Of a DNA stretch of 64,000 bases, positions 4,926-31,463 are shown piece after piece. Position 1 is the stretch's first letter; the number at the start of each line of letters is the position of its first letter. The notes under the pieces were generated by a model, which worked only from the letters and a program-made list of their open reading frames with translations, made no database searches and was not told the origin of the DNA. The position numbers and the translations under genes are program-made. The stretch comes from Bacteroidota bacterium (GTDB lineage Bacteria > Bacteroidota > JABWAT01): contig JAFLBE010000015.1 in the NCBI GenBank assembly GCA_017303995.1, positions 1 to 64,000 on the forward strand, given 5' to 3'.

Positions 4926-5255
4926 GGGGGAAAGCTGTTAGCCCGTCAAAGGCCGGGTTGTAACTCTTAGCTGTTGGCTTTTGGCTGTCATCCCGGCCGG
5001 CGAGCCGGTTAACGAAGTTCTGCGAAGCTCATCCAACATTTGAATTTTGGAATGGGGAATGTAGTCCCAGGAATTCGTAGGGGCGACTGGTTAGTCGCCC
5101 TGGAAATTTTTTGCAGGGGCGTCGCCCCGACCTGTTTGTAGTAAGTCGAAACCAAGATAAAAATAAGCTGCGTAGCAGCGACCCGTTTGCCTTAGCGGCA
5201 ATTCTTTGTTTATTTTCATCCCGAACCCGTTTTTTATTAATCCCGAATCAAATTT
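4926..5255. repeat. Repeat-rich gap before the RAYT gene
   Basis: Gene-free. In order it holds a GCCCGTCAAAGGCCGGGTT hairpin word (4941-4959), about three heptamers of the type TTGGCTG (4967-4987), a GTAGGGGCGACT hairpin (stem 5081-5088/5093-5100), and hairpins A0 (5116-5128) and B0 (5167-5179), which form the left half of the RAYT element. Confidence 0.75.
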
Positions 5256-5732
5256 ATGGCAAACACCTATTCCCAAATTTATTTGCACTTTGTCTTTTCT
5301 GTAAAAGGCAGGAATAATCTGATATCCGAAAAACATCGGTCGGAACTTCAAAAATATATTACTGGAATTGTTCAAAACAGAGGGCACAAACTCCTTTCAA
5401 TTTATTGCCGACCTGATCATCTTCATTTTTTTATTGGATATAATTGTTCACAACCAATTCCCGATTTACTCAGAGATGTAAAGGCTTCTTCTGCTAAATA
5501 TATAAATGAAAACCATTGGATGCCGGGAAAATTTGAATGGCAGGATGGTTATGGTGGCTTCTCCCATTCGCGGTCCCAATTAAATCAGGTTGTTCAATAC
5601 ATTAACAACCAAAAGGAACATCACGAAGTAAAATCGTTTAAAACCGAATATTTGGAAATGCTGGAAAAATTTGGAATTGAATTTAATGAAAAATATTTAT
5701 TTGAATGGATAGATTTGGATCAGGCGGGTTAG
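5256..5732 (+). CDS. IS200-like REP-associated tyrosine transposase (RAYT)
   Basis: A 158-residue Y1 HUH-type single-strand transposase. Visible motifs are the metal-binding HUH equivalent H55-L56-H57 in RPDHLHFFIG, the candidate nucleophile Y115 in QVVQYINNQKEHH, and FEWQDGYGGFSHS (residues 93-105), which is typical of the RAYT/IS200-like branch. Proteins of this group cut single-stranded hairpin DNA through a 5'-phosphotyrosine. The ORF appears intact and of normal length. It sits between hairpins A0/B0 and C0/D0, whose unit recurs without the gene just downstream, so those hairpins are its likely substrate. The family call is secure; present-day activity and specificity are inferred. Confidence 0.92.
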   Translation: MANTYSQIYLHFVFSVKGRNNLISEKHRSELQKYITGIVQNRGHKLLSIYCRPDHLHFFIGYNCSQPIPDLLRDVKASSAKYINENHWMPGKFEWQDGYGGFSHSRSQLNQVVQYINNQKEHHEVKSFKTEYLEMLEKFGIEFNEKYLFEWIDLDQAG

Positions 5733-5752
5733 TCAATTTTTGTAGGGGTCTT

Positions 5753-5781
5753 CTTTTATTTTGTTTGTAACAAAATAAAAG
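5753..5781. terminator. Perfect 13-bp AT-rich hairpin after the RAYT gene
   Basis: Arms CTTTTATTTTGTT and AACAAAATAAAAG (5753-5765, 5769-5781) with a TGT loop, 21 bp past the stop. It is absent from the gene-less copies, so it belongs to the gene-bearing form. It may act as a bidirectional terminator, but no GC core or separate U-tract is present, so that role is tentative. Confidence 0.45.
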
Positions 5782-5972
5782 GAAACAGGCCGCTCCTACG
5801 GAGCTTTTAACTTGGGTTGGGGGTTGGGGCTCTACAAACAGGTCGCACCTACGGTGCTGCGGAATATTCATGATTCTCGATTTACAAGTTTTCTGGGTGT
5901 CGAAAAAACAGAGCGACTCTTCGATAATACAAAATGTTTTTGAAATTGTATAAACTGCCCGGGATTAAAGTA

Positions 5973-6684
5973 GGGGCATCGCCCCGACCTGTTTGTAGAA
6001 AACCCAATCAAATACAAAAAAGCTGCGTAGCAGCGACCCGTAGAAATTGGGTGGTTAAAAACACAGGTCGCTCCTCCGGAGCTTTTAACTTTGTGTGGGT
6101 TTAGGGCTCTACAAACGGGTCACACCGCTGGTGCTGCGGAAGATTCAAAATTCTGGAATTACAAGTCTTTTAAGTAAAGAAAAATCGTAGTTTTCCCATC
6201 AGCCCCAAAAGGATTTTTGATTGTGAAACTGCCCGGGATTAAAGTAGGGGCGTCGCCCCGACCTGTTTGTAGAAAACCAAATCACATACAAAAAAGCTGC
6301 GTAGCAGCGACCCGTTGAAATTAGGTGGTTTAGAAAACAGGCCGCTCCTACGGAGCTTTTACTTCGGGTTGGGTTTTGGGGTTCTACAAACGGGTCGCAC
6401 CTACGGTGCTACGGAAAAAATCAATGATTTAGGGTTATAAGTTTTTTGGGGTGACAAAAAAACAGAGCGACTCTTCGCCAATACAAAATATTTTTGATTG
6501 CGAATATGGCCTGGAATTTAAAAAGGGGCGTCGCCCCGACCTGTTTGTAGAAAACCAAATCACATACAAAAAAGCTGCGTAGCAGCGACCCGTTGAAATT
6601 TGGTGGGTTAGAAAACAGGTCGCTCCTCCGGAGCTTTTAAGTTGGTGGGGTCTGGGTTCTACAAACGGGTCGCACCTACGGTGC
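5973..6684. repeat. Three tandem gene-less copies of the RAYT element
   Basis: Each copy carries the four hairpins in the same order. Copy 1: A 5973-5985, B 6022-6034, C 6070-6082, D about 6123-6133. Copy 2: A 6247-6259, B 6296-6308, C 6344-6356, D 6397-6409. Copy 3: A 6525-6537, B 6574-6586, C 6622-6634, D 6672-6684. The period is 274-278 bp, and the spacer between copies is itself conserved (for example CAGAGCGACTCTTCG at about 5909 and 6470). Stem changes are partly compensated: C alternates TAC and TCC in the loop while the stem is kept. The array ends about 25 bp before the DUF2062 stop codon. Confidence 0.85.
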
Positions 6685-15901: not shown

Positions 15902-16258
15902 TAAATTCAGTAGGGGCGACCGGCTGGTCGCCCTGTAGTTAGTAGACATTAGGTAGTAGACAAGAACCCCAGCGAGAGCATGAATCTAAGGAGAAACGCT
16001 GTCCTGTGGGATTTTTTTATTGAAATTTCGCAGAGGCACTCCCAAGACCTACGGTCAAACCATTGGGGTGTCTCTGTATTTTTGTCCCAGGACCTTTCGT
16101 AGCAATGTAAAACAAATAACTTCCCCATCTTCGCACATTCCATTCAGTCATATTATCAAAAAAACTTTATTGAGTAAATTCCTTTTAGGTTGAAATGAGT
16201 TGTTAAAAATAACAAATATTCTGATATTGATTAAAACAATTTCAACCTGGATTTCCAA
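15902..16258. repeat. Structured intergenic DNA after the metalloprotease gene
   Basis: Gene-free. A GTAGGGGCGACC hairpin (stem 15914-15921/15926-15933, loop GGCT) is a sister of that at 5081 and may terminate the gene. A four-unit heptamer array follows (15936-15963, for example TAGACAT and TAGGTAG). From about 15990 to 16105 lie nested imperfect inverted repeats around GACC-TAC-GGTC (about 16048-16058), flanked by CAGAG..CTCTG and outer GTCCTG..CAGGAC arms. This could be a transcribed structured RNA or another palindromic repeat family. Confidence 0.55.
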
Positions 16259-31202: not shown

Positions 31203-31463
31203 GAAAATTCAGGTTCCCCCGGACCCCGAGTTCAGCCATCGGCTGAGTATCGAGGGGCACGGGGTTATTCATGTTTTACCCTTTGGGATTTTTTTATTCA
31301 TTTGCGTGAAAACCCGTGTGATTTGCGGAAGGGTTCTGTTTTTCCGCCCGGAATGGGCATAATTGTATCAATTGATCTATTGCCCGGGCGGGTTTAGCTG
31401 ATCGGCTAATCGTTTTTCTACAAATAGGTCACCCCGCCGGGGTTGCAATTTCAGAATTGAATT

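Follow-up and report, generated by a model that had tools for sequence, protein, structure and literature searches.

Double-hairpin ends around an IS200-type Y1 transposase gene and dispersed gene-less four-hairpin units in a Bacteroidota bacterium

In this study, we examine a 64,000-nucleotide stretch of a Bacteroidota bacterium (assembly GCA_017303995.1, contig JAFLBE010000015.1, positions 1 to 64,000; hereafter the window), which carries at 5116-6684 a Y1 transposase gene of the HUH type set among 16 small hairpins. The hairpins occur four times in the order A(+) B(+) C(-) D(-), and the open reading frame (ORF), at 5256-5732 on the plus strand and 158 aa long, lies between B and C in unit 1 only. 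All consist of a 5-bp stem and a 3-nt loop; the stem is perfect in 15 of the 16 and pairs at four of five positions in the remaining one, D of unit 2. The starts of B and C are 625 nt apart in unit 1 and 48 nt apart in units 2-4, which leaves 35 nt between the two hairpins, and no gene remnants were seen in that loop of the gene-less units. The features of the locus are as follows.

5116-5141, plus strand: outer left hairpin A of unit 1 (5116-5128, GGGGC GTC GCCCC) with tag GACCTGTTTGTAG (5129-5141)
5167-5186, plus strand: inner left hairpin B of unit 1 (5167-5179, GCTGC GTA GCAGC) with tag GACCCGT
5256-5732, plus strand: Y1 (HUH) transposase gene, 158 aa, assigned by its motifs to TnpA-Y1 subclass 1.2, with DHLH (residues 54-57), WQ (95-96) and Y115-x3-Q119-x2-HH123 (PMC6006769)
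5785-5804, minus strand: inner right hairpin C of unit 1 (5792-5804) with tag
5832-5857, minus strand: outer right hairpin D of unit 1 (5845-5857, GCACC GTA GGTGC) with tag GACCTGTTTGTAG
5858-5972, no strand: spacer between units 1 and 2, repeated as 6135-6246 (units 2-3) and 6410-6524 (units 3-4)
5973-6134, plus strand: unit 2, gene-less A-B-C-D (A 5973-5985, B 6022-6034, C 6070-6082 on the minus strand, D 6122-6134 on the minus strand with one mismatch)
6247-6409, plus strand: unit 3, gene-less A-B-C-D (A 6247-6259, B 6296-6308, C 6344-6356 and D 6397-6409, the last two on the minus strand)
6525-6684, plus strand: unit 4, gene-less A-B-C-D (A 6525-6537, B 6574-6586, C 6622-6634 and D 6672-6684, the last two on the minus strand)

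The gene is framed by A and B on the left and, inverted, by C and D on the right, with a fixed spacing of ~50 nt within each pair and with distinct outer and inner signatures. In the window, the tag GACCYGTTTGTAG (general form GACCYRTTTGTAG) comes directly after the outer hairpins A and D, and GACCYGT or GGCCTGT (general form GACCYGTT) after B and C, the inner ones. A preliminary description of this DNA, made from its letters alone, had offered RGGTCG or GTAG as the recognition tag. A short tag does adjoin the stem, and RGGTCG is the reverse complement of its start, CGACCY, but the tag is longer than proposed and differs between outer and inner hairpins. The same description had placed four A-B-C-D sets here, with the gene in the B-C interval of the first and ~35 bp in that interval elsewhere, and we find this arrangement, a gene-bearing unit beside gene-less units of identical order, at exactly 5116-6684. 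Its proposed tandem growth by 274-278 bp also holds: successive A starts lie 274 and 278 nt apart and successive D starts 275-277 nt, a period of ~275 bp that takes in flanking DNA, the inter-unit spacer itself being repeated, and a sister species has another number and order of units at this locus. At 5077-5100, immediately upstream of unit 1, lies a distinct GTAG-headed palindrome, GTAGGGGCGAC[CT]GG...GTCGCC, with a second copy at 15910; it possibly represents another family of repetitive extragenic palindromic (REP) sequences.

Units and tags were counted across this genome (G000; 4.31 Mb, 127 contigs) by pattern searches and scans of fetched stretches. The pattern exceeds chance: the exact 13-nt tag GRCCYRTTTGTAG has 49 copies and the reversed-pattern control none. 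Among relatives, 29 copies occur in the sister species (G002), none in a member of the same genus that has only a 43% relative (G001), and none in a genome without the gene (G003), with 0-5 copies of the reversed-pattern controls per genome. At 71 distinct tag sites of G000 and the sister species, picked without structure as a criterion, a perfect 5-bp/3-nt hairpin precedes 61, as compared to 0.6% of shuffled 13-mers, and a hairpin with at least four pairs precedes 67 (shuffled, 4.5%). Complete A-B-C-D units number 14 at eight places (four at C35, three at C69, two at C117 and one each at C49, C66, C84, C99 and C102), and one of the 14 carries the gene. Five further units have lost or decayed hairpins (two at C46 and one each at C53, C57 and C126). 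The dispersed gene-less derivatives that had been anticipated are thus present; the anticipated order is kept in the 14 units but is not exclusive, as about ten sites have hairpins outside it, and several of these belong to a second, longer repeat family. Spacings vary little (A-B 48-53, B-C 39-48 and C-D 50-53 nt), and stems keep the identity of their side from unit to unit (left GGGGC/AGGGC, right GCACC/ACACC). Tags differ between paralogues inside one genome, and that of a second paralogue, L002, has 26 copies in G000 and 0-6 elsewhere.

Other hairpin repeats were seen in these searches. A second dispersed family (window 31418-31430 on the minus strand, L202, L174, L175 and L176) has the stem ACCCC or similar and the tag GACCTATTTGTAG; its copies have repeated DNA of up to ~490 bp in common in both sister genomes, and related stems ACCAC occur at L185, L191 and L164. 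Downstream of paralogue L002 (L002:1000-1336, G000:C65), seven near-identical tandem hairpins, GCACC AGC GGTGC followed by GRCCTCTYGGTAG, lie ~54 bp apart on the gene's strand, and single-hairpin arrays with a period of 50-54 bp are also found at L099, L111, L123 and L160.

An alignment of 21 gene-less units locates the conserved structure in the individual hairpins. Local stems pair in 98.8% of cells, and five pairs have changed on both sides, in 18 cells, a level of covariation reached by none of 500 shuffles. For the nested tag-to-tag and B-to-C pairings, no covariation was seen in this alignment. The single strand is able to fold in a nested manner (z -5.7 and -5.1), but covariation is confined to the local stems, and the two nested hairpin pairs of the preliminary description were therefore rejected as the conserved structure. 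Also rejected were a described RNA family, a search of Rfam giving no match, and phage carriage, for which there was no phage match and three plasmid records, all non-mobilizable. Between five orthologous units, identity is 97% in hairpins, 99% in outer tags, 84% in spacers (~1% gaps) and 69% in flanks (many gaps), and hence hairpin, tag and spacing look constrained while the spacer sequence drifts; the hairpin figure is somewhat inflated, since units are recognised by their hairpins. The 5' foot of the outer hairpins is here mostly GNA and then a stem G or A (GCAG, GTAG, GAAG), the A at -1 being the one position conserved across phyla. Read on the opposite strand, the tag gives YTAC-AAANANGTC, a mere lead with regard to the TTAC/TCAA-type sites, selected by guide sequences, at which IS200/IS605 elements are cleaved for excision as single-stranded circles.

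The window protein matches Pfam Y1_Tnp (PF01797) at 1.6e-23 and the NCBIfam IS200/IS605 model NF033573 at 62.7 bits, above the cut-off of 55, whereas it scores 23.1 bits against a cut-off of 80 with the NCBIfam model for REP-associated tyrosine transposases (RAYTs), NF047646. Its motifs DHLH, WQ and YINNQKEHH fit the signature Y---Q--HH given for TnpA-Y1 subclass 1.2 by Quentin et al. 2018 (PMC6006769), and an alignment of 43 members shows no variation at Y115, Q119, H122, H123, W95, Q96 and H55. In RAYTs, an NP motif adjoins the tyrosine (PMC2817692); looked for after Tyr115 of the window protein, it was not found, the residues there being INNQ. By its sequence motifs, the protein belongs to TnpA-Y1 subclass 1.2 (class 1). 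The preliminary description had called the gene a RAYT, an assignment that we reject on the profile score and the absence of the NP motif. An AlphaFold model of the protein (mean pLDDT 91.5) has as its best structural matches by E-value the ISDra2 and IS608 transposases (Foldseek; 2xqc, 2vjv and others), consistent, as are both family profiles, with a Y1 HUH transposase of IS200/IS605 type. The tightest superposition of the model is on the monomeric RAYT 4ER8 (2.8 Å root-mean-square deviation, rmsd), with dimeric enzymes at 5.6 Å or more, which in a single-chain prediction can at most hint that the tyrosine helix packs in cis. This genome holds one copy of the gene and five paralogues at 35-58% identity, and the multiple near-identical copies expected of an IS200/IS605 insertion sequence (IS) are absent from it. 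Two transposase paralogues, L003:1501-1959 and L060, have one in-frame stop each and are apparently decaying.

For subclass 1.2, Quentin et al. give 'no' for REP, report that terminal IS200 secondary structures are generally lacking, and describe the subclass as without IS properties (PMC6006769). We sampled 80 related genes with 52-97% identity; the GTDB genomes that carry them belong to Bacteroidota, Verrucomicrobiota, Ignavibacteria and a small number of other groups. Hairpin peaks are centred at about -80, -30, +15 and +65 relative to the gene (73-76 related genes), and a hairpin with tag is present in the A, B, C and D windows of 29, 42, 40 and 22 of 79 loci, as compared to 5, 4, 2 and 2 in control windows 200 nt further out. 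The complete A-B-gene-C-D layout occurs in 23 of the 80 loci and gene-less units near the gene in four of the 80, and neither occurs in any of 80 shuffled loci. Across loci the outer tag reads G-A-[CA]-[AC]-T-n-T-T-T-G-T-A-G-A. Its positions 7-13 (TTTGTAG), which lay outside the selection criteria, are 70-94% conserved at outer hairpins; inner hairpins, mostly A-[GCTCC GTA GGAGC]-GACCTGTT with a degenerate end, have tags that are mostly degenerate past position 8. Tag type tracks the protein tree, with 14 changes as against a shuffled mean of 29 and minimum of 24. The verrucomicrobial tag GACATCTTTGTAG occurs in all six verrucomicrobial genomes, with 2-7 copies each, and in none of ten other genomes, and GACCTGTTTGTAG is present in one of the six. 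The cross-searches support cognate pairing, in which each gene lineage has its own tag. With four positioned hairpins here and in many relatives, it appears that the published, hairpin-free description of subclass 1.2 is incomplete, rather than that membership is wrong. More distant relatives (28-39%; L070, L072, L079, L080, L082 and L073) have other hairpins, often with loops TTTA, TGAA or TAAA, which suggests a separate hairpin code in that branch.

The sister species shows which parts of the system change. Its window locus has flanks 92-94% identical and the gene at the same place, with 97% protein identity; one gene-less unit precedes the gene, one follows it, and unit 1 is without D. Three tandem units at C69 correspond to one in G002, the units at C49, C102, C117 and C126 are missing from orthologous intergenic sites of G002, and a unit at G002:C11 is missing in this genome. 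The gene-less module is dispersed in the genome and variable between sister species, and the pattern is that of a REPtron, with the gene stationary and the hairpin units mobile or turning over. That the window copy is the parental autonomous form, as the preliminary description proposed, is plausible, although its unchanged position in the two species gives no sign that the gene itself moves. Around hairpin A of the C57 unit (L189/L171), a deletion of ~15 nt removes the hairpin almost exactly and keeps the tag, an outcome to be expected of slippage or of cleavage at the foot of the hairpin. At the intergenic site where this genome has the two tandem units of C117, the sister species has an ORF starting MKQRIYIDTSIVGGFF with a small partner ORF (L205, G002:C26:110400-111900); by its look the former is a putative PIN-domain toxin, and units and cassette share one intergenic site.

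We consider it probable that the locus is a REPtron-like element of an IS200-type (class 1, subclass 1.2) HUH-Y1 transposase, whose double-hairpin ends are recognised by the protein and whose gene-less units are dispersed in trans. The TnpA of IS608 and ISDra2 and TnpAREP bind folded single-stranded hairpins and cleave beside them (PMC6006769, PMC8266576). By analogy with IS608 TnpA and TnpAREP, the protein would bind each folded single-stranded hairpin with its 3' tag. The two hairpin types per end suggest a division of labour, in which cleavage would fall within or beside the outer tags, marked by the outer hairpins (TTTGTAG), and the inner hairpins would aid assembly or regulation. Gene-less four-hairpin units may be moved or copied in trans on single-stranded DNA, probably the lagging strand, while the gene copy would now move rarely or not at all. 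Tandem growth would add a unit with its flank (~275 bp at this locus, 233 bp at C69 and 286 bp at C117); either the same enzyme or slippage between the repeats could bring it about.

Several points weigh against this reading. Recognition, cleavage and movement are the parts of it that we infer. At the five loci compared, the surrounding intergenic DNA is replaced or rearranged, and for this reason none of them offers a clean empty site at which the exact ends of the moving unit could be read. Movement must also be slow, since most gene-less units are common to both species, and copy numbers are low outside this genus. Divergent relatives (28-58% identity, and in the local genome set those below ~50%) often carry hairpins in comparable positions, but tags or layouts differ and few of these hairpins are of the same tag type. 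We therefore restrict the claim to the clade tested and do not extend it to the whole of subclass 1.2.

Three other explanations were weighed. An ordinary IS200/IS605 insertion sequence, with two hairpins per end by chance and with internal deletions like those of miniature inverted-repeat transposable elements (MITEs), would transpose whole, gene included, as IS608 does. The NCBIfam IS200 equivalog match, the fold shared with the TnpA of IS608 and ISDra2 and the retention of both ends in gene-less units speak for it; catalytic motifs and hairpins near both ends are further features in common with such elements. We nevertheless find it unlikely, given a single, stationary gene copy at the same locus in the sister species with paralogues that are not near-identical, a subclass described without IS properties, and two mutually inverted hairpins per end, where IS200/IS605 elements have one per end, many near-identical gene copies and, by description, no terminal inverted repeats (PMC2817692). 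The short gene-less derivatives of these elements known as PATEs or MITEs similarly keep their parent's ends, but the units here have four hairpins at a fixed 50-nt spacing with variable spacers. Quite unlikely, too, is that the hairpins persist because they serve the host or work at the RNA level (transcription termination, mRNA stability, or gyrase or polymerase binding), in a hairpin-rich locus where the gene merely resides and tandem copies arise by slippage. The units are intergenic, the C hairpins are followed on the plus strand by a T-run (GGAGCTTTT) and could be weak terminators, and the sister species differ little in hairpins and tags; yet hairpin positions around the gene are fixed across phyla, and the tag is particular to the resident gene, missing in relatives that lack the gene and different between paralogues of one genome.

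Least likely of all, and in our estimate very improbable, is a true RAYT/REPIN system as the preliminary description held. There are likenesses: a Y1 gene lies between inverted hairpins with many dispersed cognate gene-less units and one tag per gene (PMC2817692, PMC3116915, PMC8266576), tandem clusters include the flanks (PMC3116915), the gene is immobile, perfect hairpins of 5 bp have a precedent in Marinomonas REP-Mb, the GNA(G) at the 5' foot recalls GTAG, and the model superposes on the RAYT 4ER8. Against this, the RAYT profile score falls far below its cut-off, the NP motif is absent, and the protein is of the IS200-like class 1 and not class 2; each side bears not one hairpin but two, an outer and an inner one that differ in signature, and the conserved tag (GACNTNTTTGTAG) is 3' of the hairpin, whereas that of REPINs is a 5' GTAG. 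The system works like REPIN-RAYT and yet is not a RAYT. It resembles the published members of subclass 1.2 in its HUH, WQ and Y---Q--HH motifs, its length (~150-158 aa), its specific C-terminal extension, low copy number and occurrence in Bacteroidota, but its genes carry four conserved hairpins and have gene-less relatives of the unit, which contradicts the published lack of hairpins (PMC6006769). In our searches of the open literature, which did not take in subscription papers, we found neither hairpins described for subclass 1.2 nor any four-hairpin unit.

Subclass 1.2 had no known DNA substrate, and the precise hairpin and tag sequences now provide a candidate one which can be synthesised, with natural specificity variants (GACCTG, GACCTCTTGG, GACATC and GACATT) matched to sequenced proteins. 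It has been suggested that REPINs originated as the ends of an ancestral IS200-like element (PMC3116915). We lean, somewhat cautiously, towards seeing here a REPIN-RAYT-like system on an IS200-type enzyme outside the RAYTs, with a double-hairpin-framed gene and gene-less four-hairpin derivatives, in several phyla and in a subclass recorded as hairpin-free; it would be the predicted kind of intermediate or an independent invention of the same lifestyle. Since an IS200-type enzyme already lives here with dispersed gene-less units while its gene sits inside its own unit, the system bears on the origin of stationary RAYT/REPIN systems from mobile IS200-like elements.
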